64,000 nucleotides of DNA from Arenibacter amylolyticus (GTDB lineage Bacteria; Bacteroidota; Bacteroidia; Flavobacteriales; Flavobacteriaceae), in contig NZ_MTAZ01000019.1 of assembly GCF_002150785.1 (NCBI RefSeq), positions 1-64,000 of the forward strand, given 5' to 3'. The notes under the pieces were generated by a model, which was given only the letters and a program-made list of their open reading frames with translations, was not told the DNA's origin and made no database searches. Positions 2,318 through 43,650 of this stretch are shown here, one piece after another. The translations under genes and the position numbers were made by a program. Each line of letters begins with the position of its first letter. Position 1 is the stretch's first letter.

Positions 2318-2878
2318 TTATGCCTCTTTCCACTTTATATTACAACCTATGCTTGGCTTTTGTAAAGGGTCGATAGGAGTGCCATTTAAAAGGTTGTCCA
2401 TGGCAGCCTTAAGATCGGCCCCGGTAACTGCCAACCCATTCCCAGGCCTGGAATTATCAAATTGACCGCGATATACCAATTTTAAATCTTTATCAAACAA
2501 ATAAAAATCAGGGGTACAGGCTGCATCATAGGCCTTGGCTACCTCTTGGGTTTCATCGTATAGGTAAGGGAAGGTGTAGTTCTGTTCCTTGGCAATTAAC
2601 TTCATTAAATGCGGGGCATCCTTGGGATACTTCTCCACATCGTTGCTAGATATGCCAATAAAGGAAATTCCCAATGGCTGATAGTCTATAGCCGTCTTGG
2701 AAAGTTGAGCGTTAACGTGCTTAACAAAGGGACAATGGTTGCAGATAAACATAATTACGGTGCCCTTGTCACCTTTTAGCTCTGCCAGCGTCCTCTTTTT
2801 TTCCAAGGTGGTATCCAATAAATTAAAATCAGGGGCAATTGTGCCCAAAGGCAGCATATTGCTGGGGGTGTTCGCCAT
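2318..2878 (-). CDS. Thioredoxin-fold redoxin (AhpC/TSA family, CxxC)
   Basis: A 186-residue protein with an N-terminal APDF redoxin start, then the active-site motif ICNHCPFV with Cys46 and Cys49, and the ACTPDFYLFD stretch that supplies the cis-proline of the fold. It belongs to the family often annotated as thioredoxin family protein or redoxin, widespread in Bacteroidota. It has no signal peptide, so it is predicted cytoplasmic. Two further cysteines lie at positions away from the active site. It neighbours a 1-Cys peroxiredoxin on the same strand with about 400 bases between, so the two are separately transcribed. The exact substrate is unknown. Confidence 0.85.
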   Translation of the reverse strand: MANTPSNMLPLGTIAPDFNLLDTTLEKKRTLAELKGDKGTVIMFICNHCPFVKHVNAQLSKTAIDYQPLGISFIGISSNDVEKYPKDAPHLMKLIAKEQNYTFPYLYDETQEVAKAYDAACTPDFYLFDKDLKLVYRGQFDNSRPGNGLAVTGADLKAAMDNLLNGTPIDPLQKPSIGCNIKWKEA

Positions 2879-2987
2879 AATAAATTTACTTTAGTTATCT
2901 TTTGCTATTCCGCTAAATGTAGTCAAATTAATTTGCAATTAAAAGGCACAATGGCTATCTTAAATAAGCGAAATAAACTTTGGAGTT

Positions 2988-3293
2988 ATGAAAGAATCAT
3001 ATCAAACCTTATCCGAAGCGATCACCGATCTAAAGCAGGCGGGATACACCCAAGATCTCAATCTGGCCGAAACTGGCCTGGAGGATAAAGAGCTGAAGCG
3101 GATGCATGCCGCGCACGATTTTAATGTTGTTAAATATTACCGGTTCGAAGGGGTAAGTGATCCGGATGACAATGCGGTGCTATTTGTTATAGAGACGGTA
3201 GATGGGGATAAAGGACTTTTGGTGGATGCCTATGGCGCTTATTCTGGGAATGTATCCAAAGAAGTGATGGATAAACTAAGGATTATTCGATGA
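2988..3293 (+). CDS. Small conserved Bacteroidota protein (often mislabelled PRPP synthetase)
   Basis: A 101-residue acidic soluble protein. Homologues in flavobacteria are commonly labelled phosphoribosylpyrophosphate synthetase, but it is a third of that enzyme's length and lacks its PRPP-binding loop, so the name should not be believed. The visible pattern is a helical N-terminus (YQTLSEAITDLKQAGY), a central FNVVKYYRFEG stretch and DPDDNAVLFVIET, suggesting a small alpha-beta domain. It overlaps csaA by four bases (ATGA), so the two are probably translationally coupled. Function unknown. Confidence 0.75.
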   Translation: MKESYQTLSEAITDLKQAGYTQDLNLAETGLEDKELKRMHAAHDFNVVKYYRFEGVSDPDDNAVLFVIETVDGDKGLLVDAYGAYSGNVSKEVMDKLRIIR

Positions 3294-4552: not shown

Positions 4553-5595
4553 GAAAGACGGGATATCTTTTGCTGAGGTTATGGATAAGGATTGCCTTGT
4601 GGTGTTATTTCTCTAAAATTTCCAGAAGCGGACTAGCGCATATTCCCAAGGATAAACCACTGCTCTTTTTGGCCAATCACCAGAACGCCCTACTAGATGC
4701 TTTATTAATAGCGGTGCGTGGTCCCAGAAAGATTTATTTCCTCACCAGGTCCGATGTTTTTAATAATCCCCTCCTAAAAAGATTTTTTGAATTCTTGCAG
4801 ATGATTCCCATCTATAGGATGCGCGATGGTATAGGCTCTTTACAGCAGAACAAAACTATCTTTGAATACTGTAGTAGATTGTTGCAGCGGGGAGAAGCCA
4901 TTCTTATATTTCCAGAAGGGAACCATTCCCTAAAGCGAAAAGTACGCCCGCTGAGTAAGGGCTTTACCCGCTTCCTATTTGCAGCCTTGGAAAAGAATCC
5001 CCAATTAGACATTCGGCTACTCCCTTTAGGATTCAATTACGACAATGCTGTAAACTTTCCAGATAAGGTGTCCGTTTGGTATGGCAAGGATTTAAGGGTG
5101 TTGGATTATTACGATAAAGAAAAGGAAGCTACTTCGGTTAGCAGAATGAAAACGGCAGTTTTTCAAGAATTAACCACCCTTACCACCCATATTGCTGACG
5201 ATGAAATGCATGATGGTCTTGTGAGGCATTTTAAAAGGGGTGGACTAGATTTTTTGGATCCGGTAGCCATCAATAGGGCCGTAATGGAAATGCCTAAAGC
5301 ACCGCAAGAAGGCGTTATGGTATTGGAGTCCCCTAGTAAACGGGGCATAGGAGAATGGGCATTTAACATATTAAACTTTCCAATAACGCTTATTTGGGCC
5401 TTTGCTATACGTCCCAAAATTAAGGAATTAGAGTTTGTGAGTACAGTGAGGTTTATGTGGTTTCTACTGCTTTTCCCCCTGTACTATCTGATGCTGGCGG
5501 TACTTTTAATCTACTATTTGGGGATATCCGGGGCCACCATAATAGTGGCAGGGCATTTTCTTTTCAATATAGGCCTGGTTAAGCTTCGCTCCTAG
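4549..5595 (+). CDS. Lysophospholipid/glycerolipid acyltransferase (PlsC-like)
   Basis: A 348-residue membrane-associated acyltransferase. Block I is NHQNALLD with His44 and Asp50 separated by five residues, one more than the classic HX4D of bacterial PlsC and closer to the eukaryotic Sct1/Gpt2-like glycerol-3-phosphate acyltransferases. Block III FPEGNHS (residues 121-127) binds the phosphate. A hydrophobic N-terminus and two C-terminal membrane helices (about 300-345) flank the catalytic domain. The TTG start overlaps the transporter stop by three bases, consistent with translational coupling. It probably acylates glycerol phosphate or a lysolipid at the inner membrane. A terminator follows. 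Confidence 0.85.
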   Translation: MRKTGYLLLRLWIRIALWCYFSKISRSGLAHIPKDKPLLFLANHQNALLDALLIAVRGPRKIYFLTRSDVFNNPLLKRFFEFLQMIPIYRMRDGIGSLQQNKTIFEYCSRLLQRGEAILIFPEGNHSLKRKVRPLSKGFTRFLFAALEKNPQLDIRLLPLGFNYDNAVNFPDKVSVWYGKDLRVLDYYDKEKEATSVSRMKTAVFQELTTLTTHIADDEMHDGLVRHFKRGGLDFLDPVAINRAVMEMPKAPQEGVMVLESPSKRGIGEWAFNILNFPITLIWAFAIRPKIKELEFVSTVRFMWFLLLFPLYYLMLAVLLIYYLGISGATIIVAGHFLFNIGLVKLRS

Positions 5596-30030: not shown

Positions 30031-30399
30031 TTAGTCGCGTTCGGCATCAATCATAGATTGCCTATACTCAATTCCCCATTTTGCCATTTCGTCTATTAAG
30101 GGCGACAGGGTTTTACCATACTTGGTGATAGAATATTCTACCGTGATGGGCTTGGTGTTCATGACGGTGCGACTCACCAACTGGTTCATTTCCAGGTCCT
30201 GGAGTTCCTTGGAGAGCATTTTGGTGCCAATGCCCTTCACCTCGCGTAGTAAATCCATGAAGCCTAACTTATCGCCCTCTATGAGGGTGCCCAGTATATG
30301 GAACTTCCACTTGCCAGATAAAATACTCATGGTGTCGCTAATGGCCTGCATTCTAACCTGACAAACCGGGGAGTTGTTTATGACTGCTTTCTTTCTCAT
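30031..30399 (-). CDS. HxlR/DUF24-family redox-type transcriptional regulator
   Basis: A 122-residue winged-helix dimeric regulator. VCQVRMQAISDTMSILSGKWKFHILGTLIEGDKLGFMDLLREVKGIGTKMLSKELQDLEMNQLVSR is the standard HxlR core, with the recognition helix near TKMLSKELQDLE. Cys13, just before the first helix, corresponds to the sensing cysteine of thiol- and quinone-responsive relatives such as YodB and HypR. Its own upstream region carries two 14-bp palindromes 18 bases apart, so autoregulation is likely. The same arrangement occurs before the YdhR-type gene at 32251. Divergent from the DsbA-like gene. Confidence 0.92.
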   Translation of the reverse strand: MRKKAVINNSPVCQVRMQAISDTMSILSGKWKFHILGTLIEGDKLGFMDLLREVKGIGTKMLSKELQDLEMNQLVSRTVMNTKPITVEYSITKYGKTLSPLIDEMAKWGIEYRQSMIDAERD

Positions 30400-30443
30400 A
30401 GTTTTTTTTGTGTTAAATATGAAGGTGCTACTACCAAGGGTAG

Positions 30444-30475
30444 TTCCCTATAGGAAACTACTTCCCAAAAGGAAA
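30444..30475. promoter_or_regulatory. Tandem palindromic operator upstream of the HxlR-type gene
   Basis: Two sites with an 18-base period: TTCCCTATAGGAAA (30444-30457) and TTCCCAAAAGGAAA (30462-30475). On the minus strand they read TTTCC-N4-GGGAA. They lie just downstream of a minus-strand TATATTTG element and upstream of the plus-strand one, so a bound dimer pair could control both directions. Confidence 0.65.
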
Positions 30476-30482
30476 TGCGTAT

Positions 30483-30490
30483 CAAATATA
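30483..30490 (-). promoter_or_regulatory. -7 promoter element for the HxlR-type gene
   Basis: TATATTTG on the minus strand, seven bases upstream of the first operator palindrome. Confidence 0.55.
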
Positions 30491-30504
30491 CAGCTTATTC
30501 CCCG

Positions 30505-30512
30505 TATCTTTG
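30505..30512 (+). promoter_or_regulatory. -7 promoter element for the DsbA-like gene
   Basis: TATCTTTG on the plus strand; the two palindromes would lie some 40-75 bases upstream of its start point. The leader to the ATG at 30701 would be about 180 bases. Confidence 0.45.
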
Positions 30513-30700
30513 CCTGTGATTAAAAATGAAAAAGGAGTGTATCCAATGAGGAGGGAAATTCAACTGTAGTCACAAAGGGCCCTACTGACAAGAAAAGGAA
30601 TACAATGTCGATTAAAAATATCAGTTAAAATCAATCCTTAAAATTATTAAACGAATCATCCATTAGGGTTTTACCGCTTTATTGGGAAAAATCAAAAGAT

Positions 30701-31624
30701 ATGAGTAACGAAACATCAAAAAATAATCCGCTTTTATGCGATATAGAAACGGGAATGTGTGAGGTAACGACTAATGAAGTTCAAGAGGCTTCCGATTCAA
30801 CCCCTGCCGCTACCAATAAAAAAATTAAGTTGGTTTATTTTACCGATCCAATTTGTTCTTCTTGTTGGGGGATTGAGCCCCAATTGAGAAAACTGAAATT
30901 GGAATATGGAAATCAGTTAGAGATTGAATACAGAATGGGTGGCTTATTACCAAATTGGAGTTACAATAGTGGAGGTATCAGTAAGCCCTCCGATGTTGCT
31001 TCACACTGGGATGAGGTGAGTGTTTATTACGATATGCCCATAGATGGGGATCTGTGGTTAGAAGACCCCTTAAACTCGTCCTACCCACCTTCCATTGCTT
31101 TTAAGGCAGCGCAATTACAGGATGAAGAGAAGGCCGTGCTATTTATGAGGGAGATGAGGGAAATGATGTTCCTAAAGAAAAAGAATCTTGCTAAATGGGA
31201 GCACATGGCTACTGCCGCAACTAGCGTAGGACTGGATGTGACCCAATTAAAAGTCGATTTTGAAGGCAAGGCCAAATCCTTGTTTGAAGAGGATTTAAAA
31301 GTGGCAAGGGATTATGGGGTAAGAGGATTCCCTACTATCTACTTTTTGGATGATGCTGGAAATAAAGAATTGGTATATGGATCAAAACCCTACGCCCTTT
31401 ACGAAGCGGCCATTCTTAAACTGAATCCGAATATTTCAAAAAGTGAATACAGTAAAAACTGGGAAACACTATTCTCTAAATATCCCACACTAACAGCAAA
31501 AGAGTATTCCGTGCTATCCGGTGCGCCAAGAATAGAAAGTGAGGAAATGTTGAATGCGCTTTCAGATAGTGGAAAGTTAGATAAATGGAACACAAAAAAC
31601 GGGGCCATCTGGATTTTACAATAA
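30701..31624 (+). CDS. Cytosolic DsbA-family thiol oxidoreductase (YjbH/FrnE-like)
   Basis: A 307-residue thioredoxin-fold protein with a helical insert. The active site FTDPICSSCWGIEPQL carries Cys52 and Cys55; the CxxCW form is that of FrnE and of the YjbH/SpxH group, not of secreted DsbA. GVRGFPTIYFLDD (about 205) is the cis-proline loop. There is no signal peptide. The first 40 residues are a lineage extension with two more cysteines (Cys13, Cys20) in LLCDIETGMCEV. It is followed by doxX (45-base gap) and is divergent from an HxlR-type regulator, pointing to thiol or quinone stress. Substrate unknown. Confidence 0.87.
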   Translation: MSNETSKNNPLLCDIETGMCEVTTNEVQEASDSTPAATNKKIKLVYFTDPICSSCWGIEPQLRKLKLEYGNQLEIEYRMGGLLPNWSYNSGGISKPSDVASHWDEVSVYYDMPIDGDLWLEDPLNSSYPPSIAFKAAQLQDEEKAVLFMREMREMMFLKKKNLAKWEHMATAATSVGLDVTQLKVDFEGKAKSLFEEDLKVARDYGVRGFPTIYFLDDAGNKELVYGSKPYALYEAAILKLNPNISKSEYSKNWETLFSKYPTLTAKEYSVLSGAPRIESEEMLNALSDSGKLDKWNTKNGAIWILQ

Positions 31625-31669
31625 TATGTACTATCCACCATCAACCTATAAATTTTAAATAAATCACCA

Positions 31670-32098
31670 ATGATCAAAAAAATCTTTAATCCCGGGGAGA
31701 CCTCCAATACGATAAGTTATGCAATATTATTGCTCCGTCTGGCCGCAGGGGTGTTCATGTTGACCCATGGTATGGGGAAATTATCCGCCTTATTTGGTAG
31801 TGACCCCATTCAGTTTCCAGATCCCATTGGGTTAGGAGCAACGGTGTCCCTAGCGCTTACCGTTTTTTCCGAAGTGTTCTGTTCCTTGCTCCTAATTCTG
31901 GGCTTGGGAACTCGCTTTGCCACCCTACCATTACTCATCACTATGTTAGTAGCTGCGTTTATAGTCCATGCCACTGATGGATTTGGGAGGCAGGAACTGC
32001 CCCTCTTCTACGCAACGGTTTATGTGGTTATAGGCCTATTAGGTGCCGGTAAAATTTCACTGGATAATTTGGTGTACGCTAAAATTAAAGAGGAGTAG
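31670..32098 (+). CDS. DoxX family membrane protein
   Basis: A 142-residue four-helix membrane protein. The DoxX signature LLRLAAGVFMLTHGMGKL lies in helix 1, followed by SLALTVFSEVFCSLLLILGLGTRFATLPLLITMLVAAFIVH spanning helices 2 and 3. DoxX proteins take part in thiol-stress complexes in mycobacteria and in quinone-linked reactions elsewhere; the activity of this one is unknown. It is downstream of the DsbA-like gene in the same direction and shares its terminator, so they are probably one operon controlled with the divergent regulator. Confidence 0.88.
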   Translation: MIKKIFNPGETSNTISYAILLLRLAAGVFMLTHGMGKLSALFGSDPIQFPDPIGLGATVSLALTVFSEVFCSLLLILGLGTRFATLPLLITMLVAAFIVHATDGFGRQELPLFYATVYVVIGLLGAGKISLDNLVYAKIKEE

Positions 32099-32161
32099 GG
32101 CACTACTAATTTTTACTAGCTTTTATCGCTGAAGCTATTGATTAATAGGGGAACAAAGTAT

Positions 32162-32190
32162 TAAAGAGGGGCTGCAGCCCCTCTTTATAT
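32162..32190. terminator. Terminator of the dsbA-like/doxX operon
   Basis: AAAGAGGGGCTG (32163-32174) is followed with no loop bases by its exact complement CAGCCCCTCTTT (32175-32186). It is a perfect 24-base palindrome between convergent genes. Confidence 0.75.
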
Positions 32191-32250
32191 TCCGTATCTG
32201 TACTTAATTACAGAACAGAATTGTTAAGTTTAAGACGCTCGACTAGCTGT

Positions 32251-32553
32251 TTAGAGCGGTGCCTTGCATAGTTTGGAAAGCGCTTCGTTTATTTCGAACA
32301 CCCCTCCTTTAATATCAGAATACCCAAATTTCTTTAAGCGTTCGGTGTGCATTTTTAGATAGTTCTCGGCATTTTCTCGAGTGTCGAACATATAGACGCC
32401 TCCTGCCATATTTTCTTTTTGATTTTCGGTCCAGAATTTCCAAACAAAACCGGGTTCCTTGGTAATACTTTGGGCAAGATCGTTCATTTGAATTGCCATT
32501 TCTTTTCCCCACACTTCCTTATGTGGAAAATCTACATACATGATGACGGCCAT
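32251..32553 (-). CDS. YdhR-type monooxygenase
   Basis: A 100-residue member of the YdhR family, dimeric ferredoxin-like alpha-beta barrels that resemble cofactor-free quinol monooxygenases. The start is ATG 32553 (MAVIMYVDFPHKEVWGKEM); the longer frame adds 24 unrelated residues and runs towards the operators. LAQSITKEPGFVWKFWTENQKENMAGGVYMFDTRENAENYLKMHTERL is the family core. The tandem palindromes at 32616-32647 match those of the HxlR-type gene, so the two are probably co-regulated. A role in quinone or aromatic detoxification is inferred from family and context. Confidence 0.85.
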   Translation of the reverse strand: MAVIMYVDFPHKEVWGKEMAIQMNDLAQSITKEPGFVWKFWTENQKENMAGGVYMFDTRENAENYLKMHTERLKKFGYSDIKGGVFEINEALSKLCKAPL

Positions 32554-32615
32554 AATCGTACATTTTTTAATTAGTTGACAAAGTTCCAGAAGGGGAAGAA
32601 CAAACAAGCTATAGC

Positions 32616-32647
32616 TTTCCTCCAAGAAACCAATTTCCTGCAGGAAA
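32616..32647. promoter_or_regulatory. Tandem palindromic operator upstream of the YdhR-type gene
   Basis: TTTCCTCCAAGAAA (32616-32629) and the perfect palindrome TTTCCTGCAGGAAA (32634-32647), again exactly 18 bases apart. The period and TTTCC-N4-GGAAA form match the pair upstream of the HxlR-type gene. An ATAAGATA sequence (32650-32657; TATCTTAT on the minus strand) could be the -7 element, 6 of 8 matching. Confidence 0.65.
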
Positions 32648-32936: not shown

Positions 32937-33833
32937 ATGGAACTACCTAAATATCATGAAACTTTCATGCCGATATTAGAAATTTTAAATTATGAAGAAT
33001 CCATTAAAAGTAGAGAGTTGTCAATTCGTGTACGTGACAAATATTATTCGGATTTATCAGACAAACTGTTAAACAAAAAAACCAGTTCAGGATCCAATGT
33101 ATTACTAGATAGGATTTCATGGGGAAAATCATACCTCAAAATGGGGAAGTTTGTTTCATATCCGAAAAGGGGACTGGTCCAAATTACGGAGAAGGGTAAG
33201 CAAATTTTGGAGACAGGTAGTTTGTCGCTAAGGCAACTTCAAAATGATAAGGATTTTGTTAAGCATAGAAAATCTGTACAAAGTAAAAAAGACGAAGAAG
33301 TTGAAATTGATTCAGTAAATGTAGACAATGCATCGCCTCAAGATCTAATAGATTCTGGGTTCTCTACAATTGAAACTGAGGTTAAAACTGAGCTATTAGA
33401 AAAACTGAAAGAAATTGATCCTTATTACTTTGAAAAAGTAATTCTTATTCTTTTAAAAAGAATGGGTTATGGAGATTTTATTGAAACATCAAAGTCTGGT
33501 GATGGAGGTATTGATGGTATTATAAATGAAGACAAACTCGGACTCGAAAAAATTTATACTCAAGCGAAGCGATATAATGAAAACAAAGTGCGTGAAAAAG
33601 ATATTCGTAATTTCATAGGGGCAATGAGTGGGGATACGAGTAAAGGAGTTTTTATAACAACTTCAACCTTTGACAATTCTGCCATTCAGAAAGCAAGAGA
33701 AGCCCATCATACTATAATTCTAATTGACGGACCTAAATTAGTAGACCTAATGCATCAATACAATGTCGGGGTGCAAGTGAAAACAGTATATGAGGTAAAA
33801 GAATTGGATAATGACTTTTTTGAGGGAGAATAA
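32937..33833 (+). CDS. Mrr-type restriction endonuclease
   Basis: A 298-residue protein. The N-terminal 95 residues are the winged-helix Mrr_N-like domain (TFMPILEILNYEESIKSRELSIRVRDKYY, GLVQITEKGKQIL). A linker rich in charged residues (100-145) leads to the PD-(D/E)XK nuclease domain: GYGDFIETSKSGDGGIDGIINEDKLG with Asp193, then YTQAKRY with Gln209 and Lys211, giving the Q-x-K form typical of Mrr. These enzymes cut modified DNA (type IV restriction). The gene is visibly more A/T-rich than its neighbours and stands alone, without methylase or partner, suggesting recent gain. Confidence 0.9.
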   Translation: MELPKYHETFMPILEILNYEESIKSRELSIRVRDKYYSDLSDKLLNKKTSSGSNVLLDRISWGKSYLKMGKFVSYPKRGLVQITEKGKQILETGSLSLRQLQNDKDFVKHRKSVQSKKDEEVEIDSVNVDNASPQDLIDSGFSTIETEVKTELLEKLKEIDPYYFEKVILILLKRMGYGDFIETSKSGDGGIDGIINEDKLGLEKIYTQAKRYNENKVREKDIRNFIGAMSGDTSKGVFITTSTFDNSAIQKAREAHHTIILIDGPKLVDLMHQYNVGVQVKTVYEVKELDNDFFEGE

Positions 33834-43152: not shown

Positions 43153-43650
43153 TTAATTCCAATTCTCATCAAAATCCAAGTCTTCGTAGTTGTCTAAGGT
43201 ATTGTCAAAATCAAACTCGCTTTCGTCAGCCTCAAACTTTTTTTCTGGTGGGGAATCTGGTATTTCACCAAAACTAAACAAGATATTTGGGTAGGATTGT
43301 CCGTCTATCTTTTCGGTAGTATCGGCCAATTCCACAAAAAAGGTCCACATGCTCAAGAAGTCGTACACGTAGATAAGTTTAGGATTTGCTTCTGTAACCA
43401 CATCGCTCAGCAATACCTCACTCATCAGCCGAACATCACTTCCACTTTCGCTCATGTCAAACAAGGCAATTTCCTCATCCTGGTTCCATTCCTCGTCACA
43501 GGTGTAGAAGGATGCCATTTCATTCCCTAAAAACCCAAAAGATTGGGTAATAGCGTCATGAAATTCCTCCAAGGTGGTAGATGCCTCTACTTCCAAGTCT
43601 CTAAAGATATCCTTATCCGCATCTAGAATGATCCTTATTTTATATATCAT
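43153..43650 (-). CDS. pRiA4b ORF-3-like family protein
   Basis: A 165-residue protein of the pRiA4b ORF-3-like (IS1096 passenger TnpR-like) family. The start is the ATG at 43650, directly after AAAAAAAGGACGAA and a -7 promoter element that lies inside the longer frame. MIYKIRIILDADKDIFRDLEVEASTTLEEFHDAITQSFGF and MASFYTCDEEWNQDEEI are family motifs. LIYVYDFLSMWTFFVELADT is the C-terminal strand. The tail is very acidic (EADESEFDFDNTL...). Despite its name, the family is not a proven recombinase; function is unknown. It sits upstream of NdpA and near heme A synthase. Confidence 0.85.
   Translation of the reverse strand: MIYKIRIILDADKDIFRDLEVEASTTLEEFHDAITQSFGFLGNEMASFYTCDEEWNQDEEIALFDMSESGSDVRLMSEVLLSDVVTEANPKLIYVYDFLSMWTFFVELADTTEKIDGQSYPNILFSFGEIPDSPPEKKFEADESEFDFDNTLDNYEDLDFDENWN

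Follow-up and report, generated by a model that had tools for sequence, protein, structure and literature searches.

The window analysed here, a 64,000-nucleotide stretch of the Arenibacter amylolyticus genome, raises a simple question: why does the same double palindrome stand both between the gene of an HxlR-type regulator (hxlR, 30031-30399, minus strand) and a divergent gene for a thioredoxin-fold protein (spxH, 30701-31624, plus strand), and again upstream of the gene of a YdhR-type monooxygenase (ydhR, 32251-32553, minus strand)? Our comparison of sequences supports the view that the double palindrome is an HxlR-linked operator with a very small regulon. We further propose, with moderate confidence, that it is the operator of the adjacent regulator and that Cys13 of this protein sets a switch that would repress hxlR and most likely activate ydhR and spxH, the latter probably with the doxX gene behind it.

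Operator 1 consists, on the plus strand, of TTCCCTATAGGAAA at 30444-30457, the palindrome distal to spxH, and TTCCCAAAAGGAAA at 30462-30475, the proximal one. Operator 2 consists, on the same strand, of TTTCCTCCAAGAAA at 32616-32629, which is proximal to ydhR and is the palindrome found in other genera, and TTTCCTGCAGGAAA at 32634-32647, which is distal. In both pairs the start-to-start distance is 18 bases, so the first-pass annotation of this DNA had the positions and the period right, as it had the location of the first pair in the divergent control region of hxlR and spxH(-doxX). We scored double sites by the number of matches at the 20 fixed positions of a double consensus, TTTCC-N4-GGRAA in each half, with the 18-bp spacing held fixed. 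The two pairs reach 18/20 and, for operator 2, 19/20, while the runner-up position in the window reaches 15/20 and no position scored above 16/20 in any of 100 mononucleotide shuffles. From base composition one expects 1.5e-4 sites of at least 18/20 per window and 0.009 per genome, and 3e-4 per genome at 19/20 or better. Single 14-bp sites are commoner than expected (the window has 7, where composition predicts 1.57), and the information therefore sits in the pair rather than in the single site. Two lone matches to the 14-bp half-motif, at 4909-4922 and 43242-43255, are probably due to chance.

A sequence-only model of the double site, built from 65 sites with both window pairs included, finds these pairs in the 3.99-Mb genome at E 3.7e-12 (operator 1) and 1.9e-4 (operator 2). 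No third full-length double site was found there, the remainder being fragments of 15-27 bases with E of at least 0.09; in these whole-genome model searches 150 first-look candidates were scored per genome (150 of 3703 in this one), and weak sites may be missed. Consensus scores, shuffles, composition and the genome search all reject a chance likeness of the two pairs, which the earlier annotation had likewise judged improbable, and the hundreds of equally good tandem sites that would have spoken against it were not found in this search.

Is the double site peculiar to this genome? From a scan of genome contigs for HxlR relatives we kept the best 80 of 200 confirmed relatives, with loci that total 0.93 Mb. 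The pair is retained in every one of these loci: with the 18-bp spacing fixed, the score is 16/20 or better in all 80 and 17/20 or better in 75. In 77 the double site lies no more than 250 bp upstream of hxlR, which bears out the earlier proposal of a link to this gene. In the other three (L067, L069 and L079; two Chitinophaga and one Flavihumibacter) it lies upstream of the partner gene instead. The list of sites of at least 17/20, read by eye, has 77 entries, every one upstream of hxlR or spxH; the 0.93 Mb contain no such site elsewhere and a single 16/20 site in other surroundings (L066).

Searches of complete genomes agree with this picture. Among 40 carrier genomes the model finds the site in 39, and in 36 of them at a single place. 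One of the others (G315) has hxlR and spxH separated, with the operator retained at each; another (G316) has its second place at a further HxlR gene, whose divergent neighbour encodes a small membrane protein that we take as DoxX-like; and a third (G320) has two weak additional matches besides the operator. A Chitinophaga genome (G337) gave no match in this search, despite the 16/20 site at spxH in its locus L067. In G316 (locus L144, region 2431-3242) the additional site scores 17/20 and lies between the second, distant HxlR gene and the divergent membrane-protein gene. We also searched 247 genomes drawn from the whole phylum, under stricter filters and with 25 candidates scored per genome. 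Matches at E of at most 0.001 occurred in three genomes, the window's own among them, with weak matches in G226 and G091, and genomes that do not carry this HxlR thus seldom have the double site. The search of the window's own genome and that of the 40 carriers both lead us to reject a wide regulon of hundreds of double sites. Since the same double site stands beside the same regulator in many Bacteroidota, it looks like a real switch rather than a product of chance.

What kind of regulator is encoded at 30031-30399? The 122-residue product is an HxlR-type (MarR/DUF24) winged-helix protein (PF01638, E 3.5e-23; 81.7 bits against a cut-off of 20.8) that matches the solved chains of HxlR, HypR, YodB and QsrR, while it falls short of the NCBIfam cut-offs for RrpA (57.9 bits, cut-off 185) and RrpB (55.4 bits, cut-off 175). 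Its only cysteine is Cys13. The first-pass annotation had pointed to this residue as one at the sensing position, and it is invariant in 85 of 85 aligned relatives, being the sole cysteine in 75 of them. The Cys-X-Lys of the formaldehyde-sensing HxlR is absent: the window protein reads Cys13-Gln14-Val15, which makes the formaldehyde bridge of HxlR impossible here, and none of eight relatives inspected has a lysine at +2. Site, conservation, spacing, regulon size and the invariant cysteine can be read directly from the sequences that we compared.

How would such a protein act from this site? From these observations we infer binding, oligomeric state, the sign of regulation, the signal, the response to oxidants and the functions of the products, and for the sign we draw on the layout of the promoters. 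According to PMC9723704, flavobacteria have a -7 box of the form TAnnTTTG, situated at -12 to -5. A predicted spxH box, TATCTTTG at 30505-30512 on the plus strand, would place operator 1 at about -42 to -73, and a predicted hxlR box, TATATTTG at 30483-30490 on the minus strand, would place it at about +4 to +35. The two boxes are 22 bp apart on opposite strands, with overlapping promoters. On the spxH strand the box is present in 73 of 82 rows, at 29 bp from the operator in 67 and at 28 bp in 6, and in a comparison with shuffles the spacing was observed in 72 of 83 rows where 0.09 were expected. None of the 73 has a TTG or TTTG at a distance of 17-22 bp ahead of the box. For hxlR, on the other strand, a TAnnTTTG lies directly next to the operator in 41 of the 79 rows aligned, against 1.18 expected from shuffles, and an alternative box lies 16 bp beyond the operator in 18 of 82 rows (two rows have both boxes). 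Ten of these 18 alternative promoters have a TTG at 20 bp, found by the same scan as for spxH, and this TTG overlaps the operator. Binding should therefore block hxlR whether its box abuts the operator or lies 16 bp beyond it. Where the locus is split (L025), the operator is on both halves; the hxlR copy has no spxH box, and the spxH copy retains both boxes. The copies that serve spxH only, in L067, L069 and L079, retain the spxH box and have no hxlR box.

In the mechanism that we propose, two HxlR dimers would bind next to each other, with a pitch of 18 bp. At hxlR the operator would cover about +4 to +35, a position from which binding would repress the gene. At spxH(-doxX) and at ydhR it would cover about -42 to -73, upstream of a promoter without a good -33 element, so that binding would most likely help RNA polymerase. 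Thiol oxidation or electrophile attack on the single Cys13 would set the activity of the protein, as in HypR and HxlR of Bacillus subtilis. With a YjbH/SpxH-like protein, a member of the DoxX family and a YdhR monooxygenase as its output, the switch would mount a response to thiol or quinone stress that is very small. The geometry suggests autorepression combined with activation and fits these better than it fits plain repression.

Does this regulon extend to ydhR? The product of 100 residues, with its ATG at 32553, is a clear member of its family (PF08803, E 4e-35, 120.1 bits against a cut-off of 27.1; PRK11118, 129.2 against 103), and a possible, imperfect -7 box, GAACTTTG at 32579-32586 on the minus strand, lies 29 bp from operator 2. 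The gene is rare, being present in 6 of 397 genomes of the family and in 3 of the 40 carriers. We compared 11 ydhR genes that stand separately, outside the operon, and found the palindrome at five of them (the window, L166, L167, L168 and L209), four in genomes outside the genus. These five palindromes match at 8-10 of 10 positions and end 60-62 bp ahead of the start codon, and each of them leaves a gap of 29 bp to the box, as at spxH; the boxes themselves are imperfect (GAACTTTG, TAACTTTA and TAAATTTA). A clear pair of palindromes is present in the window only, the second copy in L209 matching at 7/10. Two congeners (G009 and G012) have ydhR inside the operon, with a 20/20 operator on one side of the gene and spxH on the other. 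Judged from these sequences, the link to ydhR is real but patchy. The earlier claim of a regulon reaching ydhR therefore stands in so far as the palindrome recurs at the same position in other genera and the gene has entered the operon in two congeners, and finds no support at the separate ydhR genes that have no site; likewise, loss of the motif from relatives that keep the regulator is seen in part, since G001, G004 and G008 keep the hxlR operator and have no site at ydhR.

Several observations weigh against an activating switch of this kind. A perfect hxlR box stands beside the operator in only 41 of the 79 rows, the spacing tests were all made after the pattern had been seen, and the genomes compared are related by descent. 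The palindrome is absent at 6 of the 11 separate ydhR genes (G001, G004, G008, G253, G402 and G618), and by eye there is a TTG 18-19 bp before the ydhR box in the window and in L166, so that the argument from the -33 element partly fails there. In L209 (genome G573) the best double-site match is upstream of ydhR (E 0.024), with no strong operator elsewhere. Finally, YodB and CatR belong to the same family and are repressors inactivated through thiol modification, according to PMC6943732, and a protein bound at -42 could repress as well. This leads to the main rival, a classical repressor of the YodB/CatR type, in which bound dimers would silence both hxlR and the divergent operon and oxidation of Cys13 would free them. 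The overlap of the divergent promoters speaks for it, since one bound complex could silence both. Yet the core promoter of spxH lies clear of the operator, at a distance that hardly varies (28-29 bp); the lack of a -33 element in all 73 spxH promoters would be odd for promoters that need only a block; and the copies that serve spxH only hold the same spacing. We regard plain repression as a serious possibility, and as the less probable one.

We give much less credence to a second rival, in which a different regulator reads the operator and HxlR is a mere neighbour. The ydhR site of G573, in a genome without a strong operator elsewhere, is what one might expect in that case. Within the genus, however, the site follows the HxlR orthologue rather than spxH. 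Among 18 genomes the operator is present in six, which are the same six that have an HxlR of at least 50% identity and the same six that have ydhR, and in none of the other 12; such a coincidence has a chance of 1 in 18,564 if the genomes are independent, with the reservation that the identity boundary (50% against 46% in G005) was noticed after the fact. SpxH is present in seven, and the additional genome (G006) has neither a regulator orthologue nor the site. In a tree of 35 HxlR proteins a single branch separates the site-bearing ones from the rest, with support of 91/79 and in 90% of the bootstrap trees. Moreover, some other HxlR genes have repeats of their own with the same pitch and different letters. 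Among 63 upstream regions of such genes (40 fetched, and 23 loci from the HxlR search within the genus, its weakest matches left out), a direct repeat at exactly 18 bp occurs in nine, with 0.07 expected, the next best period being 28 bp (4 against 0.27 expected, with mononucleotide shuffles as controls); if palindromes are required, the 18-bp pitch is seen in 8 regions against 1.85 expected. The nine regions include close copies (L091-L093; L106 and L203), and as a rule for all HxlR genes the pitch is borne out in part only, in 9 of 63. The repeats with other letters are found in L091-L093, L106, L169, L170, L173, L203 and L205, and read TTACC-N4-GGTAA in L091-L093. A last alternative, that the second pair (32616-32647) is a non-functional chance likeness of the first, could draw on its far lower model score and on the four genomes (G001, G004, G008 and G618) that have the regulator's operator and no site at ydhR, and we find it very improbable in view of its 19/20 match, the proximal palindromes at the same place and with the same gap in four genomes outside the genus, and the in-operon ydhR genes of G009 and G012.

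What would the proposed activating switch control? The product of 30701-31624, with a CxxC at 52-55 (PF13743, E 7.5e-54), had been labelled DsbA-like in the first-pass annotation. That general DsbA-type identity gives way to a YjbH/SpxH relative, since the protein has full-length similarity to Geobacillus GK0824 (PDB 6ghb/6gho; residues 36-304, E 3.4e-40); no NCBIfam SpxH model matches at E 1e-3. GK0824 in these structures is the YjbH of a YjbH-Spx complex, YjbH being the ClpXP adaptor for Spx in Firmicutes. All of the 79 relatives compared have the CxxC together with two N-terminal cysteines, and an SpxH-like gene is present in 76 of the 80 loci; in the other four (L060, L061, L076 and L077) a YceI-like gene stands divergently behind the same operator. 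Co-occurrence gives no support for Spx as the partner of the SpxH-like protein, a Spx-like relative being present in 18 of 18 congeners and SpxH in seven; of the two ArsC-family genes in the window's genome, one is an ArsC above its cut-off and the other reaches 50.9 bits against 75.05 for Spx/MgsR. In 47 of the 79 SpxH-like genes, moreover, the reading frame continues upstream; this extension is hydrophobic in 44 and in 35 of these also carries a cysteine, resembling a lipoprotein signal. All 47 retain a methionine at the start of the short, cytosolic form, which is the form of the window gene, and two start codons giving two locations are possible in the extended genes.

Behind spxH, after a gap of 45 bases, lies the gene of a DoxX-family membrane protein (31670-32098, plus strand; PF07681, E 7.6e-17, 62.2 bits against a cut-off of 23.6; below the cut-off of the HvfX model, 56.4 against 80), probably in one operon with it. 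A DoxX of the window type occurs within the fetched flank in 11 of the 80 loci, in four of them directly behind spxH (L003, L008, L017 and L018). A further 22 genes were chosen for their position next to the operator or to a variant form; they include 12 SnoaL_2, 4 DoxX_2, 4 YceI and 1 thioredoxin-like gene. Going by the roles of these families, the mix of SnoaL, DoxX, YceI and YdhR suggests quinone or electrophile chemistry. On the far side of operator 2, on the other strand, a gene for an Mrr-type restriction endonuclease (32937-33833) starts 289 bp past the operator; its regulation from there looks unlikely.

Redox regulators of the DUF24 type with a target set of few genes are known. Three features are new as far as the literature searched goes: the widely conserved double operator, the YjbH/SpxH relative as its partner, and a promoter geometry that works in two ways. 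That literature, which omits most subscription papers, contained no description of the operator or of the HxlR-SpxH pair. For a regulator subgroup of many Bacteroidota, the operator sequence, the geometry at two promoters and a complete, very short target list are now available, and they offer an entry point to two questions: are these HxlR proteins activators or repressors, and what does the YjbH/SpxH relative do outside Firmicutes? More speculatively, one could imagine a one-operator thiol-stress switch of Bacteroidota that parallels the YodB/Spx/YjbH system of Firmicutes and is wired oppositely: an activator of the HxlR type with a single cysteine would always have a YjbH/SpxH relative as its target, made in many species perhaps in a cytosolic form and as an exported lipoprotein from two start codons. 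The HxlR regulators of Bacteroidota would then have an operator grammar in common, the 18-bp pitch of two dimers, in which only the half-site letters change. We offer this broader picture tentatively, as one that may well prove wrong.

How does the system compare with those already known? HypR (YybR) of Bacillus subtilis resembles the window regulator in its HxlR/DUF24 fold (4a5m, E 2.2e-14) and in its N-terminal redox cysteine, Cys14 there and Cys13 here. HypR has a second cysteine, with no counterpart in 75 of the 85 relatives of the window regulator. According to PMC6943732, thiol modification at Cys14 activates HypR rather than inactivating it, which we propose for the window regulator too, and its target is the flavin reductase gene hypO, in place of the YjbH/SpxH relative here. 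The HxlR of B. subtilis is alike in fold (7bzd, E 2e-13) and in having a cysteine in the N-terminal helix, and its own operator consists of two repeats. It differs in that its Cys11-X-Lys13 bridge requires a lysine two residues on, where the window protein has Cys13-Gln-Val. According to PMC7835342 it is an activator, as the window protein would be, and modification of Cys11 raises its DNA binding. For the YjbH/SpxH of Firmicutes the likeness lies in the full-length similarity to GK0824 and in the CxxC kept by all 79 relatives of the window protein, and the differences are that no Spx was found above the curated cut-off here and that 47 of the 79 genes carry the signal-like upstream extension. 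YodB (5hs7, E 2.5e-11) and CatR, finally, share the fold, the N-terminal sensing cysteine and the association with thiol or quinone stress, and the catDE operon also includes a DoxX-type gene. They are repressors, whereas the geometry of the operator described here points to activation.

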